The position numbers were made by a program, and so were the translations under genes. A stretch of DNA of 27,439 nt, from positions 1 through 27,439 of IMG/VR virus record IMGVR_UViG_3300044841_000212; one strand, 5' to 3'. Source of the DNA: a virus. Shown piece after piece: positions 2,360 through 25,041 of the stretch; position 1 is the stretch's first letter, and the number at the start of each line of letters is the position of its first letter. The notes beneath the pieces were generated by a model, which had not been told where the DNA came from, searched no databases, and was given only the letters and a program-made list of their open reading frames with translations.

Positions 2360-3169
2360 ATGTCCGCGGTCCTCACCGCCAGCGACATCTGCAGACGCGC
2401 GCTGCGGATGATCAACGACTTTCCGATCACGGAAAGCGCCGCGAGCGGCGAAAGCTTGCGCGAAGCCATGATCTGGCTCGACCTGATCATGGCGGAGACG
2501 GCCGGCATCGACCGGCTGTTCTTCCTGCGCACCGCGACGCTTCCGATCACGATCGTCAACGGTACCCAGAAATACGATCTCAACACGTCGCTGGGGGCAA
2601 ATCTCCCGCTCGATCGCGTGCAGTTCCCTATCGACGCCTGGCTGCAGGACCAGCTCGGCAATCGCACGCCGATCGAGCTCGTGGACCTGCAACAGTTCGA
2701 ATCGGTCGCCACGCCCACCCAAACCGGGCCTCCGTACTGGCTGCACATCGACCGGTTGCCTACCCCGACGCTGCGCGTCTTCCCGACCCCGGACGTTAAC
2801 GACACCAACACCTACACGATCCAACTGGTGGTGCAGACCTATGCGCCCAACGTGGCGCCGGGCGGGGTGACCGGGACGCAGCCCTCGGGTTCGATCCTAA
2901 CCAATTTCCGGCAGGCCTGGCAGCGCTGGTTGTGCTTCCAGCTCGCGCATGATCTGGGCTCCGGGCCGATCATCAAGCTCGATGAGCCCTCGCTCACTCG
3001 CTTCGGCGCGGTCGCGGCGTCGTCCAAGACGCGGCTCCTGGCCTTCGAGAACCGCGAACACGACACCTCGCCGCCGATCTGCGACCCGGCCTGGGACTTC
3101 GACGATGATTGCGGCGACGAGCGCTACTTCGTCGGCGGCTCCAGCGATTACGGGAACCGCTTGCGATGA
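2360..3169 (+). CDS. Head-to-tail adaptor, P22 gp4-like
   Basis: A 269-aa protein of the type annotated as phage adaptor or packaged-DNA stabilisation protein (P22 gp4-like; the analogous T7 protein is gp11). Visible features are an N-terminal helical region beginning TASDICRRALRMIND, a second helix with a REAMIWLDLIMAETAG segment, then the typical central beta insertion (LPITIVNGTQKYDLN, TLRVFPTPD) and a C-terminal helix ending in an acidic DFDDDCGDERYF tail. In this family the protein binds under the portal and forms the first ring of the tail. Downstream genes encode fiber, spike and a gp10-like hub, which fits. The last four bases overlap the fiber gene start (ATGA). The family call is from recalled sequence style, so moderately sure. 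Confidence 0.7.
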   Translation: MSAVLTASDICRRALRMINDFPITESAASGESLREAMIWLDLIMAETAGIDRLFFLRTATLPITIVNGTQKYDLNTSLGANLPLDRVQFPIDAWLQDQLGNRTPIELVDLQQFESVATPTQTGPPYWLHIDRLPTPTLRVFPTPDVNDTNTYTIQLVVQTYAPNVAPGGVTGTQPSGSILTNFRQAWQRWLCFQLAHDLGSGPIIKLDEPSLTRFGAVAASSKTRLLAFENREHDTSPPICDPAWDFDDDCGDERYFVGGSSDYGNRLR

Positions 3170-5943
3170 CCGTGATCCGCACCACCATCCCGGATTTCCA
3201 GCTCGCTAATCCGCTCTATACCGCCAGCCAAGTCTCGTTCTTCACGGTCGATGGCCTCGGGCACGCGACATCGACGCTGGCGACGCTCTATGCCGGGCCG
3301 ACCGGGCCGATCACCGCAGCCAATCCGCAGACGCTCGATGCCACCGGCAAGTTCCTGGCGCCGGTCTATATCGATGCTCCGGTCATCGCGAATGTCGTAG
3401 GACCGAACGTCGCCAGCCATTCGACCGGAGTCATCGACGTGCGCGGGACCTGGCGCGGGAATTGGGCCGCGGGCGCGATACTTTTCTCGACCGACCTCGT
3501 CCAGGACCCGGTCACCGGCAGCGTGTACGTGGCGGCTGCGGATTACACCTCCGCGGGGTCGATCGTCGTCGATATTGCGGCCGGTAACCTCGTCCTCATC
3601 CTCAATCGCGCCGCCGCGCTCAACGTCGGCGGCGGCTATCTGGCGACCATCGCGGCGCAAGCCGTAGCGACCTGGACCAAGTTCGCAGGCCCGGACGCCA
3701 ATGCGTATGTGGACGCGGCATGGTCGCCGGAACTTGGCCTGTTCGCCGCGACCGCGCCACAGGCGGTCGGCGCGATCAAGACCTCGCCCGATGGCATCAA
3801 TTGGACGGCGCGGACCGTTCCGAACTCGGCGTGGCACGGCATCGACTGGTCGCCGCAGCTCGGGCTGTTCTGTGCGGTCGGCGGCGGCAACGTCACCTCC
3901 AATATCATCACGTCGCCGGATGGCGTGACGTGGACCACCCGGACAGCACCGAACACCAACAATTGGGACGGCCTGGTTTGGGCGCCGCAGCTCGGGCTGT
4001 TCGTCGCGGTCGGGTATACCGGCACCGGCAACCGGGTCATGACTTCGCCCGACGGTATCAATTGGACGGCACGGGTCAGCGCGGCCGACAACAATTGGTC
4101 CGGCATTACGTGGTCCGGTAGCCTGCTGGTCGCCGTCGCCAATTCCGGCACCGGCAACCGGGTCATGACTTCGCCCGACGGCATCAATTGGTTGCCGCGA
4201 ACGGTCGCCATCGATCGCAATTGGGACGACGTCGCGTGGTCGCCGCAGCTCGGCCTGTTCTGCGCGGTCAGCTACTCCGGCACCGCCGACAGCGTCATGA
4301 CCTCGCCCGACGGAATCGCGTGGACGCTTCATACGACGCCCACCACCGACACCTGGACGCGGATTGCATGGTCGCCGGAACTTGGCCTGTTCGCCGCCAC
4401 CGGGGCGCCGGTCGCCGGCACCAGCAACGTGATGACCTCGCCGGACGGTGCCACCTGGGCGACGCATCTCACCGGCAATGAGAGTTGGGGCGGCATCGCA
4501 TGGTCGCCGGAGCTCGGTATCTTCGCCGCGCTCTCGTGGACCGGCGATTCGATGATCTCGACGCCGCCGCCGGTCAAACGGTCGTTTGCAACACAATATG
4601 GCGGGCTCGTGGGGATCGGGACCACGGCATCGCTGGCGAACCGGGGCATCACGATCAGCGCCGCTCAGTTTCCGTTCGGCGGAATCGGGTTCGCGGCGCC
4701 GACAACCCTGACTGAGCTTTGGGCTCTCGGCTACGAGCCGGGCACGCCAGCCAACCGCTTCGTGCTGTTCAATACGGTCACCGGCACCTATGCGGCGATC
4801 TTCGACCCCGCCACCAACAACCTCACTCTCGGCGGTGGCACGGCCGGAAACGGCGGGGCCGTCGGCTCGATCAGCTTCGGCAACGCCACCAGCGGACTTG
4901 TCAACCTGCGACCCGTTACCGGTGCGCTCGGCTCTCCTGTTTTGAGTTTGCCGGCCGCGACCGACACGCTCGTCGGCAAGGCCACCACCGACACGCTCAC
5001 CAACAAGACCTACGACACGGCCGGCGCCGGCAATGTATTCCGGATCAACGGCACCGGGATTTCCGCCATCACGGGCGCCGGGAGCGTGGTGCTCGCGACT
5101 TCGCCCACCTTGACGACGCCCACGATCAGCGGCCTCGCCACCATCTCGACCAACGTGGCCGCGCTGCCGGCGGGAGCGGCAGGTACGTTGCTGCGCATCG
5201 GCGCCAGCGATGGCACCGCCGCCCTCCAGGAGATACAGGCTTTCGGTAGCGCTGCCGTGTCCGGGAACTCGCCGGCCTATACGTTCCGGACCGCGCGCGG
5301 CACGGCGGTTAGTCCGACCGCGCTCCAAAGCGGCGATTATTTGGGCTTCGTCGCCGGCATCGGCTACGGGGCGACCGGCTATTCCACGGTGTCGCGCGCC
5401 GCGATCTCCTTCGTCACCTCGCAGATATGGACCGACGCCAACCAGGGCGCCGCCGTCCAGGTCGAGACCACCCCGAACGGCTCGACCTCCCGCGCCGTTG
5501 CGGCGAGATTTGGGCCGAGCGGCGGCTTTTCGGTCGGAACCCTCACCGACCCGGGAATCGGAGCGATCCTCGCCAACACGTCGATTCTGTCCCAGAGCCC
5601 CACCAACGGCATCGGCTACGCCACCGGCGCGGGCGGGACGATCGGGCAGGCCACCAGCAAGGCCACCAGCGTGGCGCTCAACACGATCTGCGGCGCGGTG
5701 ACGATGGCTAACGCATTGCTGGCCGCCGGCACGGTCGTTTCCTTCGTGCTCCAAGATACCGCCATCGCGGCGACCGACGTGCTGGTCCTCAATCACATAT
5801 CGGGCGGCACGCCGGGATCGTACTCGCTCAACGCCCAAGCCGCAGCGGGTTCAGCGACGATCAACGTCAGGAACAACACCGCGGGCTCCCTCTCCGAAGC
5901 CATCGTGATCCAGTTTGTGGTCATCAAGGGGGTCAACGCCTGA
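3166..5943 (+). CDS. Tail fiber with seven-bladed beta-propeller domain
   Basis: A 925-aa receptor-binding or fiber protein. I chose the ATG at 3166 because it overlaps the adaptor stop codon (ATGA); an in-frame ATG at 3109 would add 19 Arg-rich residues read out of the adaptor gene. Residues about 25-85 resemble the N-terminus of the next gene and probably anchor the protein to the particle. Residues about 185-465 form seven repeats of about 42 residues built on W..I.WSPELGLF and TSPDGINWT motifs, the pattern of a closed beta-propeller. A long Gly/Thr/Ser-rich shaft follows. The last 110 residues (from GIGYATGAGGTIGQATSK) are a beta tip domain I recognise at the C-terminus of many phage fibers. 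A carbohydrate or protein receptor on the cell surface is the likely target. Confidence 0.82.
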   Translation: MTVIRTTIPDFQLANPLYTASQVSFFTVDGLGHATSTLATLYAGPTGPITAANPQTLDATGKFLAPVYIDAPVIANVVGPNVASHSTGVIDVRGTWRGNWAAGAILFSTDLVQDPVTGSVYVAAADYTSAGSIVVDIAAGNLVLILNRAAALNVGGGYLATIAAQAVATWTKFAGPDANAYVDAAWSPELGLFAATAPQAVGAIKTSPDGINWTARTVPNSAWHGIDWSPQLGLFCAVGGGNVTSNIITSPDGVTWTTRTAPNTNNWDGLVWAPQLGLFVAVGYTGTGNRVMTSPDGINWTARVSAADNNWSGITWSGSLLVAVANSGTGNRVMTSPDGINWLPRTVAIDRNWDDVAWSPQLGLFCAVSYSGTADSVMTSPDGIAWTLHTTPTTDTWTRIAWSPELGLFAATGAPVAGTSNVMTSPDGATWATHLTGNESWGGIAWSPELGIFAALSWTGDSMISTPPPVKRSFATQYGGLVGIGTTASLANRGITISAAQFPFGGIGFAAPTTLTELWALGYEPGTPANRFVLFNTVTGTYAAIFDPATNNLTLGGGTAGNGGAVGSISFGNATSGLVNLRPVTGALGSPVLSLPAATDTLVGKATTDTLTNKTYDTAGAGNVFRINGTGISAITGAGSVVLATSPTLTTPTISGLATISTNVAALPAGAAGTLLRIGASDGTAALQEIQAFGSAAVSGNSPAYTFRTARGTAVSPTALQSGDYLGFVAGIGYGATGYSTVSRAAISFVTSQIWTDANQGAAVQVETTPNGSTSRAVAARFGPSGGFSVGTLTDPGIGAILANTSILSQSPTNGIGYATGAGGTIGQATSKATSVALNTICGAVTMANALLAAGTVVSFVLQDTAIAATDVLVLNHISGGTPGSYSLNAQAAAGSATINVRNNTAGSLSEAIVIQFVVIKGVNA
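3721..4560 (+). repeat. Seven propeller-blade repeats in the fiber gene
   Basis: Seven in-frame repeats of about 126-132 bases encode the blades. The protein repeats begin at the conserved WSP motif (tgg at 3721) and contain a TSPDG turn. Two neighbouring copies, 4021-4065 and 4147-4191, are identical over 45 bases except at one position and lie exactly 126 bases (42 codons) apart, which indicates recent duplication or conversion between blades. Such near-identical blades could allow blade number or surface to vary by recombination. Confidence 0.75.
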
Positions 5944-7805
5944 TGCCCTCCATCCGCATTGCCGACTTCGACACATGGCGTCCCGGCTACGGCCTCGCCA
6001 CCGTGAGCGCGTTCCTGGCCAACACCAACGTGCTCGCCGCGATCTTCACCGACGAGGCGTTGACCGTTCCGGCCGGAAACCCGCTAACGCTCATCCAGGA
6101 GACGCTCGGCGGCATCAGCTACGGCAAGTTCGCGCAGCCGCTCTATGTCGGCGCGCCCTACCAGTTGCAGATCAATTCGGTGGATACGACCGGCGTCATA
6201 CGCCCGCCGCTCGTCACGCTCGACGGGCAGGACGCGCAAGACGCCACGGTGGTGGTCACCGGCGGCACGCAGGCCAATTCGCTCGACGACATGCTGGCGC
6301 GGCGCATCGACGTGCGCGACTACGGCGCGTTCCTCCAGGTCGGGGTCAACAACGCATCGTCCGCCACCAATAACGCCACGCTGGTGGCCGCGCTCGGCGC
6401 GGCCGGCGCCGCATCGGGCGGCTTTGTGGAAGTGCCGGCCGGCACATTCCAGATCACCGCCTTCACCACTCCGCAGGGCGTGATCATCCGCGGCCAGGGC
6501 CGCGGCGCCACCATCCTGCAGTCCAACACAGCCGGCAACGTCGCCACCATCGGGGGTCCGCGCGCCGGGTTCTCCCGCATCAGCCTCGACGGCATCTCGC
6601 TCGTCGGCGGATCGGTCGGCATTTACGCTGCCAACCAGTCCCAGACCATTATCGACGACGTCGAGGTCAAGCGCTTCGACATTGGCATCCGGCGCTATGG
6701 CGGGACGCTGGCGGACTGGCGCCAGCTTTGGATTTCCAACTGCAACACGGGTTATTCGGCAGGCGGCAACAGCGCGGCCGGCGTAGGCGGCGCGCTCACC
6801 TTCAACCGCTGGCGCGGCGGCCAGGTCGACACCTGCGGCACCTTTGGAATCGATCTCGAAGACGTCGACCGTCTGGCTCAGGACAATGTCTTCGAGGGGA
6901 TCAAATTCGACACCAACACGGGGACGGCCGTCTACATCCAAGGCGCGCAAGGCACGGCCTTCCGTGATTGCGAGTGGGTCGGCAACACCGCCAATCTGGC
7001 CGTCGCCGACATACAGGCAACGACGCCGGTCATCGGGTTGGAAATCTCCGGCGGCGCGATGACGTCGGGCACGATCGCCGTGGCCGGAACCGCCCAGAAC
7101 TTCGTCATCCGGCGGGTCGCGCTCGCCAGCCTGACCGTGACCCTGACCACGCCCGCGCACAATATCGCGGTCGAGGATTGCATCGAGACCGCCGTCACCA
7201 TCGCGGGCACCGCCACGGCTTGGACCCGCAAGAAGTCCGAGGACCGCGGCAAGACCTTCGGGATAACCACCGGCAACGCCGCGACCGAGGCATGGCATAT
7301 CGTGCTCAACCCGGGGCAGAAGGTATATCTCGAGGCCAAGGTCGTCGGACGGCAGAACAACGGCGTCAATACCGGGTTCTATCACTTCTCGATCGCGGCG
7401 GGCCGCCCCGGCGCCACGCTCGCCTATGACAATCAGACCGGGAATTACACGGTCGGCAACATTCTCACCGGCGGCACGAGCGGCGCCAAGGCCCGCATCA
7501 CCGCAGACAGCGACGGCGGCGCTACCGGTACGCTGACGCTGCAGGACATCGTCGGCACGTTCGCGGACGACGAGACGATCACGGACGGGTCGGGCGGCTC
7601 CGCGCTGGTCAACGGCACGATCTCCGCGAGCGGCGCGGCGCTGATCGGGTCGGAGACCGACGTCAGCGCTGACCAGGAGACCAACGCCAATTGGGACGCG
7701 ATCTTCGCCGCCAATGGCAACCAGATCGAATTGCATGTCCTGGGCGACACGGCACAAACCGTTGAGTGGACGTCAGAGGTCCAGGCGCTCGTCGTCGGCA
7801 TCTGA
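5943..7805 (+). CDS. Tailspike with pectate-lyase-type beta-helix
   Basis: A 620-aa tailspike. The ATG at 5943 overlaps the fiber stop (TGATG). Residues about 20-95 are an anchoring domain similar to that of the fiber (NPLTLIQETLGGISYGKFAQ followed by TGVI). At about residue 120 the sequence VRDYGAFLQVGVNNASSATN opens the Pectate_lyase_3 type right-handed beta-helix, with the usual following VEVPAGTFQI and GVIIRGQGRGATIL coils; the helix runs to about residue 440. A C-terminal beta domain includes a repeat-like VGNILTGGTSGAKARI segment known from other phage proteins. Tailspikes of this fold usually cleave or bind surface polysaccharide; catalytic residues cannot be assigned by eye, so enzyme activity is inferred. 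Confidence 0.82.
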   Translation: MPSIRIADFDTWRPGYGLATVSAFLANTNVLAAIFTDEALTVPAGNPLTLIQETLGGISYGKFAQPLYVGAPYQLQINSVDTTGVIRPPLVTLDGQDAQDATVVVTGGTQANSLDDMLARRIDVRDYGAFLQVGVNNASSATNNATLVAALGAAGAASGGFVEVPAGTFQITAFTTPQGVIIRGQGRGATILQSNTAGNVATIGGPRAGFSRISLDGISLVGGSVGIYAANQSQTIIDDVEVKRFDIGIRRYGGTLADWRQLWISNCNTGYSAGGNSAAGVGGALTFNRWRGGQVDTCGTFGIDLEDVDRLAQDNVFEGIKFDTNTGTAVYIQGAQGTAFRDCEWVGNTANLAVADIQATTPVIGLEISGGAMTSGTIAVAGTAQNFVIRRVALASLTVTLTTPAHNIAVEDCIETAVTIAGTATAWTRKKSEDRGKTFGITTGNAATEAWHIVLNPGQKVYLEAKVVGRQNNGVNTGFYHFSIAAGRPGATLAYDNQTGNYTVGNILTGGTSGAKARITADSDGGATGTLTLQDIVGTFADDETITDGSGGSALVNGTISASGAALIGSETDVSADQETNANWDAIFAANGNQIELHVLGDTAQTVEWTSEVQALVVGI

Positions 7806-9226
7806 TGTCCGAAAACTGGAAGCCGCTCGACCTTTCGAAGGCGCTGTTCGCCAATCTCGACGAGGACGCCGTGGTCGGCTACCAGACCGCGATCGAGAAC
7901 GGCTTCGTCAACGAATTGGGCGGGCACTCCCGCTTCCCTGGCCTGGGCTCGCCCTTCGTCGATCTCGGCAATAATGACCGCATCTATCTCAGCGACTTCG
8001 ACGGCGATCTCATCGCCGCCACCAGCAAGGGCAGGGTGTTTCGCATCGATCAGTCGGGCAACGCCTCCGATGTGACCGGGGTGCCGGTGTCGGGCGGCCG
8101 CCGCGTCATCTTCGCCAAGACCGACCGCGAATTGCTAATGGCGGCGGGCGGCCCGATCGTGCGGCTGCGCAACGTCAAGACCGAGCTGCTGTCCGACCAG
8201 GCCCCGCTCACCACGCACGTCGGATGGATTCAAGGCTACACGGTCGCTATCGAGATCAATTCGGAACGGTTCTTCAATTCAGGGGCGGGCACGCCCGATC
8301 AATGGGACCCGCTCGACGTGTTCGCGGCGGACGGCACGCCGGAAAACATCAAAAATCTCATCATCACGCCGTTCGCGGAATTGCTCTTGGGTGGAGACAC
8401 TCATATCGAGCAGTTCGAGCGGTTGCCCACCGGCACGGTGCCGTTCTTCCGCCGCTGGTCGGTCGGCGACGGGATGAAGCTGCCCTATGTCTGCCTGTTC
8501 GCCGACAACGCGGTGTGGACGATCAATTTCCTGAACGAGTTCATCCGGTTTTCGGGGCAGGTTTCCACCTCGGCGTCGGCCGAGATCGGGAAGATGCTCG
8601 AGCAGATCGACGACTGGTCGGACGCCTGGCTGGGCGGATATCCGGATCGGCCGCTCCACATCGTCGGGCAGAAGTTCATGCTTCTGCAGGTGCCCAACGC
8701 CACCAACCCCTACGACACCAAGGGCATCACGCTCCTTTACGACTACCGCGCCAAGAAGTTCACCACGCTCTACGGCTGGGACACCGCCAACGGCGTGCCC
8801 TCGCGCTGGCCGGGCTGGTCGCATTGGACATTGTGGAACCGGGTGTTCGTCGGCGGCGAAGGTAAAATCTTCGAGCTGAAAGACGGCACCTACAACAATG
8901 ACGGGCGCCTGCAGCGGTGGCTTGTGCGAACAAGCCACGTCGCGGAAGGCAACGCGCTCCAGATCAAGGATTTCCGGCTGCAAGTGGTGCGCGGCGTCGG
9001 CGGCAGCGCCACGGCGCCCACGATCCGGGTGCGGTGCTCGCGTGACGGGCGCCCGTTCGGGCCGTGGATCACGAAAACGCTCGGCAAGGCCGGAGAGCGG
9101 CTGCAGATGATCAAATTCGGCGGGTTCGGCAACGGCTCGCACTTCCAATGGGAGATTTCGAGCGCAGACGATTGTAAGGTGAACCTGAAGAAGGCCGAAG
9201 TAAAAGACATGGCCTTGGGTCACTGA
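7805..9226 (+). CDS. Tail hub / packaged DNA stabilisation protein, P22 gp10-like
   Basis: A 473-aa protein, close to the length of P22 gp10 (about 470). The start is the ATG at 7805 overlapping the spike stop; an upstream in-frame ATG at 7766 is less likely. Family-like features are an N-terminal SRFPGLGSPFVDLG segment, a central STSASAEIGKMLEQIDDW (compare ASASIEKIL in gp10), a following aromatic YDYRAKKFTTLYGWDT strand, and a C-terminal beta-sandwich (FRLQVVRGVGG... IRVRCSRDGRPFGPW...). In P22, gp10 forms the hexameric hub under gp4 that carries tailspikes and the needle. The order adaptor, fiber, spike, hub is consistent with this. Homology is distant, so the call is by motif, length and context. 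Confidence 0.68.
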   Translation: MSENWKPLDLSKALFANLDEDAVVGYQTAIENGFVNELGGHSRFPGLGSPFVDLGNNDRIYLSDFDGDLIAATSKGRVFRIDQSGNASDVTGVPVSGGRRVIFAKTDRELLMAAGGPIVRLRNVKTELLSDQAPLTTHVGWIQGYTVAIEINSERFFNSGAGTPDQWDPLDVFAADGTPENIKNLIITPFAELLLGGDTHIEQFERLPTGTVPFFRRWSVGDGMKLPYVCLFADNAVWTINFLNEFIRFSGQVSTSASAEIGKMLEQIDDWSDAWLGGYPDRPLHIVGQKFMLLQVPNATNPYDTKGITLLYDYRAKKFTTLYGWDTANGVPSRWPGWSHWTLWNRVFVGGEGKIFELKDGTYNNDGRLQRWLVRTSHVAEGNALQIKDFRLQVVRGVGGSATAPTIRVRCSRDGRPFGPWITKTLGKAGERLQMIKFGGFGNGSHFQWEISSADDCKVNLKKAEVKDMALGH

Positions 9227-15641: not shown

Positions 15642-18600
15642 ATGGCCGACGACGATCGCGCGGCGCTTCTGGGTGAAGCCTATAAGCGAGGCCTCCTGCC
15701 CCCGGACATGAAGGCCGCCTACGAGGAGGCGCAAAAGCGCGGGCTGGTGCAGGCGCCGCAGCCCTCCAGCGGGGTCGGCGACTTCCTCAAGTCCATCCCG
15801 CGCGGAATCGTGTCGGGCTTCGCCGGCGCCGCCAGCGCGGTCGGACAGTCGGAAGCCAATCTCATGGCTGGATCGACCGGCAACGGTCCGCAGCCGCGCA
15901 AGCTCTCCGATTTGGTCACCGGGCACGTCCCGGACCAGGGCGATCTTGCCTTGGCCAACGCCGTTCCGGGGCCGGCCGAATCGACGGCCTTGGTCGAGCA
16001 GAACGTCACCGGCCCGATGCACCAACCCGAGGGCCCCGCCGGCAAGGTCGGCGCCGCCGTCGGGGAAGCGCTCGGCGACCCTGGCAGTTATCTTGGGCCC
16101 GGCGGATTGCCCTCCAAAATCGCCATCGCTGCCGGGGTAGGGGCCGGCTCCGAGCTCCTCGGCCAAGCGGCCGAAGGTACGCGGATGGAGATCCCGGCCC
16201 GCATAGCGGGCGGCTTCGCGGGCGGACTGACCAGCGCCGGCGTCTTGCGGGCCCTGGACCGCGGCACGGCAGAGCTGCTGGCCCCATTGAGCGGCACCGG
16301 GCAGGGCGTCCGGGACGTGGTCGCCCCTATGACCGAAGCCGGTCAGACCCGGATTGCCAGCGAAACGCTGCGCGGCCGCGCCACCAATCCGGACGCCGCA
16401 GCCGCAACGCTGGCGACCGAGCCGCTCGAAATCGTCCCCGGCTCGCAGCCGACGACGTTCCAGGCCTCTGGCGACATGGGGCTGGGCGCCTTGGAGCGTG
16501 AAGTCGCCACCAAGAACCCCGTCGAATTCAACCAGCTGCGCTCCGACCAGAACGTCGCCCGCCGGCGGGCCGTGGGAGGCCTGCAGGAGAGCGGCTCGTC
16601 GGCGGACGTGTCGGAACATCTTCGCTTGGCCTTGCGCGACCTCGACGCCGTCACCGAACAGGACGTCACCGCCGTCACCGCAAGGGCGCGCGCCGCCGCC
16701 GAGGGCATAGGCGGAACCGGGGCGCCAGAGGCCTACGGCGCGGCCATCCAGGGCGACCTTGCTCCTGGCACAGAGCGAGCCACTAGCGCCGCGCGCACGG
16801 CCGTACAGGGCATCGGGGGCGCCGGCCAGCCGGAAGGCTATGGCGCCGCGCTTCGGGGTTCGCTGGCGGATGCCCGCGCGGCAGCCAAGGCGCACGAGCG
16901 GGCCCTGTGGAACGCCGTAGACCCGGATGGCACCTTGGCGCTGCCCAGCGGGTCGCTGCGTCAGGCGGCATCCGGCATCGAAGCCAGCGTCACCCAATCG
17001 GCGCGCCCGATCGCTGGCGAGGAACGCGCCATCCTCGATACGATCGGCGGTTACCAGCCGGCGACACCATTTCGCGACATCACGGATCTGCGCAGCCGTA
17101 TCTCGACCGCAATGCGGGAGGAGCTGCGGACGTCCGGCGAGACGCCTGTGTATGCTCGGCTCGCCCGTCTGCGTAGCGCCATTGAAGCGACCATCTCGAA
17201 TGGGGTAGAACACCGTGCGGCGCAGGACGCGCAGGCCGTCGCCCGGGGCGAGATGTCGCCCCAGCAGACAATGGCCGCGATGCTCCAGCGGGCCGCGGAC
17301 GAGCGGGACACCTGGCTTGCACAACGCTCCGGAAACGCTCGAACAGGGGGTGGCGGCAGTTCTAGCGCCGCTGAGCCCGGCGCTGCGTCCGCTGTTTCTC
17401 CAGCATTGGGAGCGGAAAGCCAAGGCGGAGGGCGACTTCCTGGCACTGCGGGCGATCAGGGCCTACCAGAAGGCGCCGCCCTCCAGCCCAATTTCGACGC
17501 CGCCGCCCAGGAGCGCCTGAGAGCTGCCAGCGCGGCGACACGCCAGCGAAAACAGACCTTCGATTCCGGTCCGGTCGGCACCGTTCTGCGCTCAGCCGGG
17601 ATGCAGGGCCAGTACCGCACGCTCGACGCTATGGTCCCGGGGGCAATCTTCAAGCCGGGGCCGGGTGGATTCGAGGCCGTGCAGGCGTTCCGGCGGGCCG
17701 CTGGCAACGACCAGGCCGCGCTCGGCGCGTTGCAGGATTACGCCGCGGCCTCGCTACGGCGGGCCGCGGAGCGCCCGGACGGCACGCTCGACCCGGCGCG
17801 CTATGCCATGTGGCGGCGCCAGCACCAGGATGCGCTGCGCGGGATCCCAGGGCTGCAGGAGCGATTCGAGAACGCGGCGCGCGCCTCCCAAGCGGTGACA
17901 AACCCGCCATTGCGGCCGGATATCTCGGCCGCGCATGTGCCGGAGACTTTCTTTCACCCCGGCCCCGGCGGCTTCGAGGACGTCCAGCGCTTGCGCGGTC
18001 TCATCGGTGACGACCGAGCGCAATCCATCCTCGGTGACTATGCCGCAAGCCGGCTGCGCCAGGCTGCGCTCCGCGAAGACGGCACCCTCGATCCCGGCAG
18101 GTTCTCGACTTGGCGTCGTCAACATAGCGATGCCTTGCGGGCTTTCCCGGAATTGGAGACGCGATTTTCTGGCGCGGCGCAGGCGACGGAAGCCATCGGC
18201 GAGGCCGCGGCCGCGCGCAAAGCCGCACTCGACGAGCAGCAGCAAGGCGCGATCGGCAAACTGATCGGACTCAGCGAGCCGCAGGACGTAACGCGCGTGA
18301 TCGGTGGACTGTTCGGCCAAAAGAACGCGGTCCAGGAGATGCGCCGGCTTGCAACCGCGACCGCCAAGGATCCGGCCGCGCGCGCCGGCCTGCGCAAGGC
18401 AATCGTCGAGCACATCGCCAACAAGTTCATCGGCAATACGGAGGGGGCAACATCGGGCGCCGCGCTGATCAAGTCGGACGCTTTCCAGACGTTTATTCGG
18501 CAGAATAATGCCGCGCTTCGGCAGGTTTTCAGCGAGGAAGAGGCATCCGGCTTGCGCGCCATCGCGGCAGACCTCCAGCGAGCCAATCGCTCGATCACGG

Positions 18601-19805
18601 CGGTCAAGCTGCCGGGCGGCTCAAACACCGCGCAAGATCAGGCGGCGCAGCAGCTCAATTTGTTGCGCACCGTGCTGCATCACGCCTCGCATGTCGGCGC
18701 AGGCGCCGGTGCTGGCGCTGCGGCGGGCGCCTATTTCGGGCCCATTGGCGCTCTGGTCGGAGCCATCGGAGGTGCCGCGATTTCGGGCTGGCGCCAGGCC
18801 GGACTTCAAAAGATCGACGATCTCATAAAGACCGCGATGCTCGATCCCAAGGTTGCGTCCATGCTGCTCCAGCGGGCATCGACGAGGCCGGATCGCGGCC
18901 CGGCGATGCGGCTCGCGCATTATTTGAACCGCACCGCGGCCGTGTCGATTTGGAATGCTGCGGCAACAGCGCGCACCGATGACGGTCACCGAAGCCGGCC
19001 GGTCCAAGTGGAATCCCCGGAAGACGTGCATCGCGGATCGGAAAGGACGGAAATCCCCAGCCCCGCACAAGCCGAAGCGAATAATTACCGCAAACGCCAC
19101 GTCGCATGGAAAGGCCTCGACATCTCGATCGAGACCGAGGCCGGTCAGGACCGCGTCGGCATGGGCAAGGACGGCAAGCCCTGGTCCGTGGCAATGCCCT
19201 ATCCCTACGGCTATGTGAAACGGAGCAAATCCGCCGACGGCGAGCAGCTCGACGTGACCATGGGGCCCAATCCGCAGGCGCCGCGCGTCTTCGTGGTCGA
19301 TCAACGCGACCCCGTGACCGGCAAGCACGATGAGCCGAAAACCTTCGTGGGATTCCGCGACCAGGTCTCGGCCGAAGACGCCTATCACGCCTCATTCTCG
19401 GACGGCTCCGGGCCCGACCGCATGGGCGCCGTGACGTCATTGTCTGTGCCGGAATTCAAGAAGTGGGTCGCCGACGGCGATCTGCGCAAGCCGCTGGCCT
19501 ATGACGAGCAGGCTGGGCGCGCCCGCGCGCGGCAATCGCCCGCCATGATGGCGCAGCGGCCGAGCCTCAAGGATCTGCTGGCCGACGATCGCAGCGCCAA
19601 GGACATCAAGGCTGATCTGTTGCGCAGAGGGGTGCTGGCGAGCGATGGTGATGGCGATGGCAACGGCAAGCCCGGCAACGCCCCGTCATTCCGGCCGCGC
19701 GACCTCGCCTCGATCGGCGCGAAACGTGCGCCCGATGGCAACTGGTATTTGCCCGATCCGCAGCGTCCCGGAAAGTATCTGATGGTGTCGCGCAATGCCG
19801 CTTGA
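15642..19805 (+). CDS. Giant ejection protein with C-terminal InPase-like domain
   Basis: A 1387-aa multidomain internal virion protein. Seen in order: an N-terminal YKRGLLPPDMKAAYEEAQKR motif; an Ala/Gly-rich region (about 45-250); two short repeats around GIGGTGAPEAYGAAI and GIGGAGQPEGYGAAL (about 355 and 390); long helical regions; a tandem repeat of about 80-100 residues (from 671 and 772) starting PGPGGFE and including DGTLDP.R; a Gly/Ala hydrophobic hairpin (about 1017-1050); and at about 1147-1280 a domain beginning YRKRHVAWKGLDISIETEAG with GEQLDVTMGPNP, VFVVDQRDP and the following F-F-FSDGSG region. The last matches the pyrophosphatase-like (InPase) domain described in phage polyvalent proteins. 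It is probably injected with the DNA. Its end overlaps the next gene by 11 bases. Confidence 0.68.
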   Translation: MADDDRAALLGEAYKRGLLPPDMKAAYEEAQKRGLVQAPQPSSGVGDFLKSIPRGIVSGFAGAASAVGQSEANLMAGSTGNGPQPRKLSDLVTGHVPDQGDLALANAVPGPAESTALVEQNVTGPMHQPEGPAGKVGAAVGEALGDPGSYLGPGGLPSKIAIAAGVGAGSELLGQAAEGTRMEIPARIAGGFAGGLTSAGVLRALDRGTAELLAPLSGTGQGVRDVVAPMTEAGQTRIASETLRGRATNPDAAAATLATEPLEIVPGSQPTTFQASGDMGLGALEREVATKNPVEFNQLRSDQNVARRRAVGGLQESGSSADVSEHLRLALRDLDAVTEQDVTAVTARARAAAEGIGGTGAPEAYGAAIQGDLAPGTERATSAARTAVQGIGGAGQPEGYGAALRGSLADARAAAKAHERALWNAVDPDGTLALPSGSLRQAASGIEASVTQSARPIAGEERAILDTIGGYQPATPFRDITDLRSRISTAMREELRTSGETPVYARLARLRSAIEATISNGVEHRAAQDAQAVARGEMSPQQTMAAMLQRAADERDTWLAQRSGNARTGGGGSSSAAEPGAASAVSPALGAESQGGGRLPGTAGDQGLPEGAALQPNFDAAAQERLRAASAATRQRKQTFDSGPVGTVLRSAGMQGQYRTLDAMVPGAIFKPGPGGFEAVQAFRRAAGNDQAALGALQDYAAASLRRAAERPDGTLDPARYAMWRRQHQDALRGIPGLQERFENAARASQAVTNPPLRPDISAAHVPETFFHPGPGGFEDVQRLRGLIGDDRAQSILGDYAASRLRQAALREDGTLDPGRFSTWRRQHSDALRAFPELETRFSGAAQATEAIGEAAAARKAALDEQQQGAIGKLIGLSEPQDVTRVIGGLFGQKNAVQEMRRLATATAKDPAARAGLRKAIVEHIANKFIGNTEGATSGAALIKSDAFQTFIRQNNAALRQVFSEEEASGLRAIAADLQRANRSITAVKLPGGSNTAQDQAAQQLNLLRTVLHHASHVGAGAGAGAAAGAYFGPIGALVGAIGGAAISGWRQAGLQKIDDLIKTAMLDPKVASMLLQRASTRPDRGPAMRLAHYLNRTAAVSIWNAAATARTDDGHRSRPVQVESPEDVHRGSERTEIPSPAQAEANNYRKRHVAWKGLDISIETEAGQDRVGMGKDGKPWSVAMPYPYGYVKRSKSADGEQLDVTMGPNPQAPRVFVVDQRDPVTGKHDEPKTFVGFRDQVSAEDAYHASFSDGSGPDRMGAVTSLSVPEFKKWVADGDLRKPLAYDEQAGRARARQSPAMMAQRPSLKDLLADDRSAKDIKADLLRRGVLASDGDGDGNGKPGNAPSFRPRDLASIGAKRAPDGNWYLPDPQRPGKYLMVSRNAA

Positions 19806-22383: not shown

Positions 22384-23639
22384 CGAACGCCTACAAGCAG
22401 CGCACGGCCTGCGTTTTCGACCACGGCTTGTTTGTCGAAATGGCGGTGACGCTCGCGAAGGATTTCGGCCGCGTGCTCTATGCGTGCCCGTGGGAGTCGG
22501 GATATCCGAAATCGAACGCCATGCTGATCGGGGAGGGGCTCCCGGGCGTGACGCGGATTTCCTCGATCTGGGAACACCTGGACGACATCGATCTTTTCGT
22601 TTTCCCCGATGTTTATCAAGGTCCGCTTCAGATGCACCTAGCCTCGCTCGGCAAGCGCGTCTGGGGCGGCCGCATGGGCGAGGAGCTGGAGCTCGATCGC
22701 GACGCCAGCAAGAAGCATTTGAAGTCTCTCGGCATTCCGATCGGACCCTACAAGGTGGTGACGGGCCTCGACGCGCTGCGCGGGCACCTGCAGGAGCACG
22801 ATGATCAATATGTGAAAATCTCCCGCTCTCGCGGCGACATGGAAACGTTTCGATCAAAAAATTATCGACTGATCGAGCCGCGCCTGGACGAACTAGAGCA
22901 CTCGCTCGGCGCCATGAAAAAAATAATGCAATTCGTTGTCGAGGACGCGATCCCCGACGCGGTCGAAATCGGCTACGACGGCTATTGCATCGACGGCAGG
23001 TTCCCCAAGCAGGCGATGTGGGGGATCGAGGTGAAGGACAAGTCCTTTGTCATGCAGTGCGCGCCCTATAATGCACTGCCGAAACAGGTGCGCAGCGTAA
23101 ACGAGAAGATGGCGGGAACGCTGAAAAACTTCGGCTATCGGGGCTTCATATCGAGCGAGTTGCGCGTTACCAAGGACGGCATCGGCTACGCGATCGACCC
23201 CTGCGCTAGAGCTGGATCGCCACCATCCGAGCTTTACCAGATCATGGTGAAGAACTGGTCGGATATCCTCTGGGAAGGCGCCGAGGGCGTGCTGGTCGAG
23301 CCGGAATTCGTCGCGAAGTGGGGCGCGGAGCTTTTGCTCTTGTCCAGTTGGGCCACGAAAAATTGGCAGGCGGTCGAGTTTCCGCCGTCGCTCCGCGAGA
23401 ACGTCAAGCTCCGCCAGCTCACCGTGATCGAAGGCAAGTATTATTTCGTCCCGCAGATGAGCGACATGCCGGAAATCGGCGCGGTGGTCGCAACCGGCAA
23501 CACGATGGAGGCGGCGATCAAAGAGTGCAAGCGGATCGCGGGCCTGGTCGAAGGGCATTATGTCGAGGTGATCGACGGCTCGCTCGATGAGGCTTCCGCC
23601 GAATTCGAGAAGCTGGCAAAATTTGGCATCCAAGTCTGA
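22380..23639 (+). CDS. ATP-grasp ligase-like protein
   Basis: A 419-aa ATP-grasp superfamily protein. These enzymes activate a carboxylate as acyl-phosphate with ATP and join it to an amine or thiol. Visible elements: an N-terminal Rossmann-like region (VFDHGLFVEMAVTLAKDFG), DDQYVKISRSRGDMETF (about residue 140-155) for the ATP Lys and loop, FVVEDAIPDAVEIGYDGYCI (about 180-200) for the adenine-side Glu, and GYAIDPCARAGSPPSELYQ (about 275-295), which carries the Asp and Arg/Ser metal and substrate site as in PurD-like enzymes. Phage ATP-grasp relatives of this layout are often annotated only as hypothetical. Its coupling to a SpeD-like gene and a GNAT suggests amine conjugation; target unknown. 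Confidence 0.72.
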   Translation: MTNAYKQRTACVFDHGLFVEMAVTLAKDFGRVLYACPWESGYPKSNAMLIGEGLPGVTRISSIWEHLDDIDLFVFPDVYQGPLQMHLASLGKRVWGGRMGEELELDRDASKKHLKSLGIPIGPYKVVTGLDALRGHLQEHDDQYVKISRSRGDMETFRSKNYRLIEPRLDELEHSLGAMKKIMQFVVEDAIPDAVEIGYDGYCIDGRFPKQAMWGIEVKDKSFVMQCAPYNALPKQVRSVNEKMAGTLKNFGYRGFISSELRVTKDGIGYAIDPCARAGSPPSELYQIMVKNWSDILWEGAEGVLVEPEFVAKWGAELLLLSSWATKNWQAVEFPPSLRENVKLRQLTVIEGKYYFVPQMSDMPEIGAVVATGNTMEAAIKECKRIAGLVEGHYVEVIDGSLDEASAEFEKLAKFGIQV

Positions 23640-23847
23640 GGCGCAAGTCCCCGGCGATGCGCTCCGCTCCGCCTACGATCTCGCCACCACGCAAGAGAAA
23701 GACCCCAAGACGAGCCTGCTCAAGATCGGCGGGCCGCTTGTGGGCGTCAGCGTCAGCCAGGGCCATCCGAAGGGCGAGCTCGGCGCCGTCAAGGCCGAGC
23801 GCGCCAAGGAGAAGGCGCTCGACAAGGCATTCTCGCCGGCAAAGTAA
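23623..23847 (+). CDS. Small conserved hypothetical protein
   Basis: A 74-aa protein in a second frame overlapping the ATP-grasp end by 17 bases. I chose TTG 23623, with GAGAAG about ten bases upstream, giving an N-terminus ASKSEAQVPGDALRSAYDLA; an in-frame ATG at 23587 would add 12 residues lying wholly inside the ATP-grasp frame. Charged, helical, Lys-rich C-terminus (AERAKEKALDKAFSPAK), no membrane segment or motif. Unknown function. Its stop codon lies at the edge of the tRNA-like region on the other strand. Confidence 0.5.
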   Translation: MASKSEAQVPGDALRSAYDLATTQEKDPKTSLLKIGGPLVGVSVSQGHPKGELGAVKAERAKEKALDKAFSPAK

Positions 23848-23851
23848 CGAT

Positions 23852-23937
23852 GAGGGCGCGCTAACCGGGCTGCGCTACCGGGCTCCGGGGCTCCTTCCCC
23901 CGGCTCCCGGACGGGATTTGAACCCGCGACCTCCCTC
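23852..23937 (-). tRNA. Circularly permuted tRNA-like gene (3' half before 5' half)
   Basis: Read on the minus strand. First comes the 3' half: anticodon-stem GAGGG (23937-23933), variable loop AGGTC, T-stem GCGGG (23927-23923), loop TTCAAAT, T-stem CCCGT (23915-23911), acceptor CCGGGAG (23910-23904). A strong G/C hairpin linker with 7-nt loop (23897-23891) follows. Then the 5' half: acceptor AGCCCGG (23884-23878), T8-A9 (23877-23876), D-stem GCGC and loop AGCCCGGTTA and GCGC (23875-23858), G26, anticodon-stem CCCTC (23856-23852). D-stem 4/4, anticodon stem 5/5 across halves, T-stem 5/5 (one G-U), acceptor 5/7 plus six more pairs beyond a tandem AG/AG mismatch. G15-C48, T8-A14, G18G19 and T54T55C are present. 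Anticodon, ends and CCA cannot be assigned. Could be a decayed or tRNA-mimic element; activity unproven. Confidence 0.55.
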
Positions 23938-23975: not shown

Positions 23976-24206
23976 ATGTTTGAATTCAGCTTCGCAGGCG
24001 TGCTCTGCGCCATCCTGCTCGGCGCCGTCACCCGACACTTTTTCCCCAAGCAATTCTTGGGGCTCGTGACCACGGGTGAAGCGGCGATTCATGCCCGCCT
24101 GGTCCTGCTTGAGCACAAGGTGGGGATCACGGAACAGGCCCTCAATCCTCCGACGGCCGCGCCGGTGGTCCCGGTGGCCTTGGCGCCGGCGCCTCCCGCA
24201 GCCTAG
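23976..24206 (+). CDS. Small membrane protein in lysis region
   Basis: A 76-aa protein with an AGGAG ribosome site before ATG 23976. One N-terminal membrane segment (FAGVLCAILLGAVTRHFF) is followed by a short helical part and a Pro/Ala-rich end. It sits ten bases before the endolysin gene. A holin or antiholin is possible because of size and position, but one membrane segment followed by a soluble tail is not diagnostic. The membrane segment ends in HFFPK, echoed by HFFIK at the end of the small membrane protein at 25697-25909. Confidence 0.55.
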   Translation: MFEFSFAGVLCAILLGAVTRHFFPKQFLGLVTTGEAAIHARLVLLEHKVGITEQALNPPTAAPVVPVALAPAPPAA

Positions 24207-24216
24207 AGCGACCATC

Positions 24217-25041
24217 ATGGGATTGCGCGCCCGGGTCGCCACCGCGGCCCTTTTCTTTGTCCTGTTCGCCTCGATCGGCGTCGCCTATCTGGCGAATCAG
24301 GGGCCGTCGATCGAGCGCGTCCTGGTCAGCGAGGGCGGCTACACCAACGATCGCGAAGATCCCGGCGGGTGCACTAATCTAGGAATTACGATCTTCGATA
24401 CCCGGCTCTATGTCAAAAAGAACGCGACGTGCGCCGACGTCAAGAGGCTGACCAAGCCGACCGTGGTTCCGATCTATGGAGGCAAATACTGGGACGCGCT
24501 CAATGCCGATGCGCTGCCCTCCGGGCTTGATTACAGCGTTTTTGACGAGGGTGTGAATAGCGGCGTCGCCCGCGCCGGCCGGGTGCTGCGCCAGCTCCTG
24601 GGCCTCCCCACGCACGATTGGCACGTCACCCCCGAGGTGATCGATGCCATCAAAGGCCGCGCCGTCACGGCCCTGATCCGGCAATTCAATGCCGAGCGCT
24701 CGGCCTTCCTGCATCGCCTGAAAACCTGCCCGACGTTCTGCGGCGGGTGGGACAAGCGGGTGCGGTCGGTCAACGCGATCTCGCTGCAGCTCGCCGCCGG
24801 CGCCGCGGTGCCACTGCCGCCTGCCGCTCCGACAATCGTTGCGCCCTTGCCGACACGCGAGAAACCATCGCCAAAGGCCGCTTCTCAGCCTCACCCTGTC
24901 CAAAGCGCGCCGGACAATTCCAAACCTATTCCGCCCCCGCCCAAGACCTGGTGGGAACGCTTCCTCGAGCGGCTGCCCGAGAACCCCTTCGTGCGCTGGA
25001 CGCCCTTGCTGCCGCAGCCCGGCCCCGGAAAGGCAATCTGA
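24217..25041 (+). CDS. Endolysin, GH108 (N-acetylmuramidase type)
   Basis: A 274-aa glycoside hydrolase family 108 endolysin that cleaves peptidoglycan. The chosen ATG (24217) gives an N-terminal membrane anchor (residues about 7-26, AALFFVLFASIGVAYLA), suggesting signal-arrest-release or anchored export. The catalytic region has VLVSEGGYTNDREDPGG with Glu39 and TNLGIT, the EGGY and NxGIT signature of GH108, and a PG_binding_3-type second half (DYSVFDEGVNSGVARAGRVL). The C-terminal 70 residues are Pro-rich and end in an amphipathic KTWWERFLERL segment. The family usually has 160-200 residues, so the N-terminal anchor and C-terminal tail are extra. It overlaps the spanin gene by one base. Confidence 0.87.
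   Translation: MGLRARVATAALFFVLFASIGVAYLANQGPSIERVLVSEGGYTNDREDPGGCTNLGITIFDTRLYVKKNATCADVKRLTKPTVVPIYGGKYWDALNADALPSGLDYSVFDEGVNSGVARAGRVLRQLLGLPTHDWHVTPEVIDAIKGRAVTALIRQFNAERSAFLHRLKTCPTFCGGWDKRVRSVNAISLQLAAGAAVPLPPAAPTIVAPLPTREKPSPKAASQPHPVQSAPDNSKPIPPPPKTWWERFLERLPENPFVRWTPLLPQPGPGKAI

Follow-up and report, generated by a model that had tools for sequence, protein, structure and literature searches.

An 86-nt element on the minus strand of a phage late region, at positions 23852-23937 of the window (the whole stretch of 27,439 nt that was analysed), carries the two halves of a tRNA in swapped order, the 3' half before the 5' half. The element folds as a permuted cloverleaf, the fold recurs in other phages, and its acceptor end is sealed by a hairpin. 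We give an even chance to its being a stand-alone tRNA-mimic RNA, similar to the tRNA-like module of the Y RNA YrlA and devoid of the stem that binds Ro60. Imitation of a tRNA rather than decoding is the most likely role, and is favoured because the element matches the tRNA-like part of Y RNAs and is without the Ro60-binding part. The permuted fold in phages is of a kind already known, that of the tRNA-like module of YrlA, and the free-standing Ro60-less form is a variant of it.

Read along the minus strand from 23937 to 23852, the element runs GAGGG-AGGTC-GCGGGTTCAAATCCCGT-CCGGGAG-CCGGGGgaaggagCCCCGG-AGCCCGG-TA-GCGCAGCCCGGTTAGCGC-G-CCCTC. Its parts and the neighbouring open reading frames are listed here with the source of each assignment.

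23933..23937, minus strand: GAGGG, 3' strand of the 'anticodon' stem (tRNA positions 39-43) and first bases of the element (sequence, alignment to covariance model R1)
23928..23932, minus strand: AGGTC, variable region 44-48, with C48 opposite G15 (sequence, R1)
23911..23927, minus strand: T-arm GCGGG-TTCAAAT-CCCGT, stem 5/5 (arm search, Rfam, R1)
23904..23910, minus strand: CCGGG, acceptor 3' strand (66-70), then AG of the tandem A-G mismatch (sequence, folding)
23885..23903, minus strand: distal hairpin CCGGGG-gaaggag-CCCCGG, which seals the acceptor end; no CCA (folding)
23878..23884, minus strand: AG of the mismatch, then CCCGG, acceptor 5' strand (3-7) (sequence, folding)
23858..23877, minus strand: T8-A9 and the D-arm GCGC-AGCCCGGTTA-GCGC with G18G19, stem 4/4 (arm search, R1)
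23852..23857, minus strand: G26 and CCCTC, 5' strand of the 'anticodon' stem (27-31), 5/5 with GAGGG (R1, folding, covariation in the window-like group)
23587..23847, plus strand: 86-aa ORF without family match, upstream of the element on the opposite strand (ORF list, Pfam and PHROG profiles)
23976..24206, plus strand: 76-aa ORF without family match, downstream on the opposite strand (ORF list, Pfam and PHROG profiles)
24076..25041, plus strand: GH108-type endolysin ORF (Pfam PF05838, 6.6e-21; phrog_315 endolysin)

A preliminary description made from the sequence alone had reported all tRNA arms in the order 3' half, linker, 5' half, and both the sequence and R1, the latter at exactly the same coordinates, bear this out. 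The D-stem (4/4), T-stem (5/5), anticodon stem (5/5) and acceptor stem (5/7) that it listed are confirmed in sequence and folding, and the contact bases T8-A14, G15-C48 and G18G19 are present as claimed, together with C56. The G/C hairpin said to join the halves past a tandem AG/AG mismatch is there as well, the 5 bp of the acceptor being followed by the mismatch and then by a hairpin of 6 bp. Unconstrained folding of the isolated 86 nt yields the permuted cloverleaf (-46.6 kcal/mol, 59% of the ensemble, z -2.16), where the two termini of the RNA pair as the short 'anticodon' stem; with flanks included the same arms form, and the overall stability is unremarkable (z -1.48). The window element has no anticodon loop, no U33 and no local anticodon stem, and a duplex test gives no support for a leader-trailer helix at its open end (z +0.72).

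These features bear on the original designation as a circularly permuted tRNA gene, in which a circular precursor, joined at the anticodon, would be cut open at the acceptor and so yield a tRNA able to decode. The order of the halves and the 5/5 anticodon stem speak for such a gene, but the 5-bp acceptor (5/7) with its sealed extension, the lack of CCA, of U33 and of an anticodon loop, and the lack of a BHB-like flanking helix make it extremely improbable, and the designation is not upheld. Permuted tRNA genes of algae and one archaeon likewise place the 3' half first, but they have BHB junctions and mature into charged tRNAs (PMC3978253), neither of which is indicated for the element; since no leader-trailer helix occurs at its open end, it has no BHB-type junction of the algal or archaeal kind. 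The further idea that the element mimics a tRNA instead of decoding holds up and is likely.

Recurrence of the fold was assessed in IMG/VR, where pattern scans for a T-arm, a short linker and a D-arm returned mostly tandem collinear tRNAs, and where a script requiring acceptor pairing across the linker, with ARAGORN tRNAs masked, yielded dozens of permuted cores in other phages; a pattern specific to the window had 0 matches there. Alignment A1 comprises 43 permuted tRNA cores with the window left out, and R1, the model built from it, locates the element at exactly 23852-23937 on the minus strand with 51.7 bits (E 2.1e-12), the second-ranked match in the window reaching 8.7 bits; the search with a permuted covariance model that had been proposed as a check thus finds the element. 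All four helices of A1 covary, with 271 double-change cells against 88 in shuffles and pairing in 90.7% of cells (34-48% with slid partners), although the script picked loci for their pairing in the acceptor or anticodon stem, so that part of this covariation, as of that in alignment A3 below, is selected for. Because pairing of the acceptor and of the full anticodon stem partly decided which loci were taken, the fairest evidence in A1 lies in pairs 27:43 and 28:42, which are formed in 38/43 and 39/43 sequences with six and five pair types, respectively. Permuted cores are recurrent in many phages and show compensatory changes. The preliminary description, which was not aware of permuted tRNAs as a regular phage feature, had missed this: the cores are common in phages, and their fold is that of the tRNA-like module of YrlA.

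R1 alone cannot separate a permuted tRNA from two identical tandem tRNAs (as in L269, 66.7 bits), so collinear tRNAs were checked for separately. ARAGORN found 0 tRNAs in the window, the Rfam tRNA model had 0 matches across its whole length, Rfam at curated thresholds reported nothing in it, and an arm search found one T-arm only on the minus strand between 23700 and 24150. With a single T-arm nearby and no Rfam tRNA in the window, no collinear tRNA accounts for the halves, and this identity is rejected. A tmRNA or two-piece tmRNA, with a D-domain that has no 4-bp D-stem, a tag frame and pseudoknots, was likewise rejected, the D-stem of the element being a canonical 4 bp with G18G19; the top match among the Rfam tmRNA models reaches 8.8 bits and covers the T-arm alone. 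BLAST of the element or its surroundings against isolated phages gave tRNA-arm matches only, which led to a Y RNA beside Ro60 in phage ET08.

Among the permuted RNAs, the window element groups with Ro60-less elements on other phage contigs, namely L149/L152, L204/L206, L174 and, closest to it, L341. L341 shares with the window an identical 23-nt D-arm stretch and 24/25 bases around the T-arm; its acceptor is CAGGG/CCCTG where that of the window is CCGGG/CCCGG, a compensated pair, and the mismatch and distal GC hairpin are also present. A second tandem unit in L341 has a GAAA-capped acceptor, and each unit has its own matching end stem (GCGG/CCGC, GGGG/CCCC). In A3, an alignment of ten sequences made up of nine Ro60-less ones, the window included, and the Ro60-linked L014, the end stem is paired in 95.9% of cells and double changes occur in 5/5 pairs. 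The group has in common the 5-bp closing end stem, a mostly 5-bp acceptor with mismatch, and a GC hairpin or tetraloop. No TROVE gene was found on contigs L341 (7.2 kb only), L174, L182, L149, L204 or L206. The relatives belong to other phages and lie near terminase, portal, endolysin or methyltransferase genes; L204 and L206 are followed by terminator-like hairpins, whereas the window element is not, and some members (L204, L206) fold poorly in isolation. Tandem arrays of two sealed permuted units are seen in L341 (6832-6976, minus strand), directly upstream of a phrog_546 gene and terminase, portal and head genes, and in L174 (662-803, minus strand). L149 also encodes an 840-aa ORF (2773-5295, minus strand) that matches portal and head maturation protease and has an N-terminus with an RNA ligase profile (phrog_2659).

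The start of the window falls within a gene for a major head protein that shares about 39% identity with its counterparts in Pseudomonas phages KPP25 and phiR18, and lysis genes (the GH108 endolysin and a weak Rz-like spanin match) precede its end; as related contigs extend to 59-63 kb, it probably lacks over half of the phage. The nearby endolysin ORF places the element at the lysis genes, and the element is antisense to the late genes, as had been noted. Next to it, the minus strand showed neither a sigma-70-like promoter nor a terminator, apart from one weak terminator-like site 135 nt downstream. IMG/VR relatives sought by the endolysin or the 419-aa protein encoded next to the element gave none, and those sought by the capsid gave 35 contigs, none with the element or with a permuted core above 27 bits; several top R1 matches in related contigs overlap collinear tRNA-Met or tRNA-His genes. 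Two contigs with an endolysin relative have no tRNA arms at that place. The 419-aa gene has homologues in two related phages at 64-68% identity, with other DNA downstream and no permuted RNA, and the proposed link of the element to this adjacent 'amine-ligase cassette' is not evident; an AlphaFold model of the protein (pLDDT 40) was unusable. Elsewhere in the window (15642-19805, plus strand) a 1387-aa protein carries an inorganic-pyrophosphatase-like domain (PF18823) near its C-terminus, and its relatives in other phages are annotated as DarB-like antirestriction proteins or DNA methylases. Since the element is missing from related phages and the region differs in comparable relatives, it is accessory to this phage; that the phage lineage conserves it is unsupported. 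The compensating changes that had been called for are found in the cores of other phages (A1) and in the window-like group (A3), and are not found among the related-capsid contigs, 0/35 of which carry a core above 27 bits.

Absence from related phages and the lack of a promoter would also fit a functionless, decaying relic, either of a lost Y RNA or of a tandem array in which the 3' half of one tRNA met the 5' half of the next, an arrangement of identical tRNAs that does mimic a permuted tRNA in the model, as L269 illustrates. Arms, loops and elbow contacts are all intact, however, an array spacer would not give a 6-bp hairpin in line with the acceptor nor lose CCA exactly, and the sealed design recurs with compensation in unrelated phages (L341, L149, L204), so that a relic is unlikely, if still worth some weight. 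tRNA pieces are common attachment cores, and the 5+2+6-bp hairpin forms on both strands between late genes; the functional object might on these grounds be a plus-strand hairpin in late mRNA or a DNA site such as an attachment core. Little probability attaches to either, as the tRNA loop bases TTCAAAT and AGCCCGGTTA are kept in the minus sense only, the RNA model gives an E of 2e-12, an attachment core would consist of the 3' end of a collinear tRNA, and no integrase was seen among the ORFs scanned in the window.

What defines a bacterial Y RNA is its link with Ro60. In PMC8394870 YrlA is described as modular: its basal stem holds Rsr, as Ro60 is called in bacteria, and its tRNA-like domain is the part to which PNPase binds and which DusA and TruB modify. 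PMC7790460 contains the proposal that this domain may competitively inhibit an anticodon nuclease. Phages with YrlA are cited in PMC7765460, one prophage YrlA is listed in PMC8190616, and some jumbo phages have TROVE proteins with a tRNA-like partner (PMC7824862). At permissive Rfam thresholds the window element, L006, L012 and L014 match YrlA (RF02553), the best Rfam family for the element (27.5 bits, E 3.5e-4 for 231 bases, against a gathering cut-off of 69), with the tRNA-like module aligned at high posterior and the basal stem poorly. This low score does not exclude membership of the Y RNAs, since all Ro60-adjacent phage RNAs checked miss the 69-bit cut-off too; of the RNAs checked, the bacterial one in L272 is alone in passing it, with 81 bits. 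The element resembles YrlA in the order of T-arm, sealed acceptor hairpin and D-arm and in the short enclosing stem at the anticodon-stem position, but it is without the Ro60-binding basal stem and without a Ro60 gene nearby in the window, its RNA ends at the 'anticodon' stem, it is antisense to late genes, and its score falls far below the cut-off.

A TROVE gene (PF05731) is present on 16/39 permuted-core contigs as against 3/50 control contigs with collinear tRNAs only (Fisher p 1.4e-4), which identifies the permuted fold as that of phage Y RNAs; on the 16 contigs all 20 permuted RNAs lie 0.2-2.8 kb from TROVE. Cultured examples of a permuted RNA with Ro60/TROVE are Mycobacterium phages ET08 and Sparky, the Sparky gene being annotated Ro. 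Phage Y RNAs of this type (ET08, Sparky, L014, L092, L104 and others) have the same permuted core and fit the same model, but they possess a basal stem and lie at most 2.8 kb from TROVE, whereas the window element has neither. Their leader-trailer duplex z averages -1.8 (21 Ro60-adjacent RNAs, 20 of them negative) against +0.72 for the window element, in which a Ro60 stem is therefore unsupported. An ordinary YrlA-type Y RNA, with Ro60 encoded in the phage outside the window or in its host, and bound through a degenerate basal stem, would share the permuted module and the missed Rfam cut-off, and would accord with a 27-kb fragment whose relatives have genomes of about 60 kb. It is nonetheless distinctly unlikely in view of the duplex value and of the absence of TROVE both from the 27.4-kb window, which covers 23.9 kb on one side of the element and 3.5 kb on the other, and from 15 related contigs. 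As neither a Ro60 stem nor a Ro60 neighbour was found, the element is not to be filed as a Y RNA.

A local anticodon stem with U33 and a purine at 37 occurs in 11/20 Ro60-adjacent RNAs, against 0-2 in shifted frames and none in the window. Complete anticodon stem-loops with U33 are frequent among phage Y RNAs (L055, L061, L077, L087, L089, L092, L104, L123, L127 and others), with anticodons that vary between Thr, Asn, Lys, Pro, Gln and Arg, and in the anticodon-bearing RNAs the opening lies on the 5' side of the anticodon stem, at about positions 28 to 30. Such Ro60-adjacent RNAs might act as decoys for anticodon nucleases, or real tRNAs might be made from them. On the tRNA-rich phage contig L014 a tmRNA (7175-7595, plus strand; RF00023, 127 bits) lies just upstream of the Y RNA and the Ro60 gene. 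A genome scan returned collinear tRNA pairs only, apart from three bacterial permuted RNAs at L272 3985-4061 (minus strand), L271 6596-6675 (plus strand) and L267 5806-5885 (plus strand), of which that of L272, an Anderseniella MAG, has an Asn-like anticodon loop, CTGTTAC.

Other permuted arrangements were met as well. A second permuted class is found mostly on AT-rich phage contigs without TROVE (L012, L027, L045, L052, L090, L114, L173, L196), with several RNAs per contig (four in L196) and a common leader motif, ACAGCA(A), after the basal helix, followed in L196 by CTGA. The permuted tRNAs L006:10464-10544 and L012:5521-5605, both on the minus strand, have a 7-bp acceptor, an encoded CCA and an A/T-rich linker, and are nearer to true permuted tRNA genes than the window element; a permuted group I intron was rejected for both, there being no Rfam intron match. 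L006 has a very strong leader-trailer helix (z -5.1) and no TROVE on its 115-kb contig. In L182 (11671-11825, plus strand) the acceptor strand of the D-arm unit pairs with either the upstream T-arm unit, giving a permuted tRNA, or the downstream one, giving a collinear tRNA with a shortened anticodon arm. L080 (about 7680-7830, plus strand) has a permuted tRNA nested within the halves of another: the 5' half of the outer tRNA is followed by the 3' half and then the 5' half of the inner one, and the 3' half of the outer tRNA comes last.

The window element is presumably transcribed from the minus strand during infection. Such an RNA, retaining D-arm, T-arm and elbow contacts, would display a tRNA elbow, and with its acceptor end sealed by the hairpin it would be unable to accept an amino acid. 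It may bind proteins that recognise the T/D elbow, such as tRNA-modifying enzymes, RNases like PNPase, or defence nucleases that attack tRNA, and could be used as a decoy or a scaffold; it probably acts as a decoy for tRNA-binding enzymes. Because the element has no anticodon loop, any target would need to read the elbow. A free module without Ro60 would suit the nuclease-inhibitor role proposed for the YrlA domain (PMC7790460). More broadly, it is conceivable, though on balance doubtful, that sealed, permuted tRNA-mimic RNAs independent of Ro60, sometimes in tandem, make up a class in phages and decoy tRNA-elbow-binding host proteins, for example defence nucleases, with the window element, L341, L174, L149/L152 and L204/L206 as proposed members.

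Standard tRNA and Rfam searches overlook the permuted core, an RNA fold that recurs in phages. A tRNA-mimic module standing alone in phages would separate the two halves of the Ro60/Y RNA system and would suggest that the mimic has a use of its own, making the element a small, testable candidate for a phage tRNA decoy.
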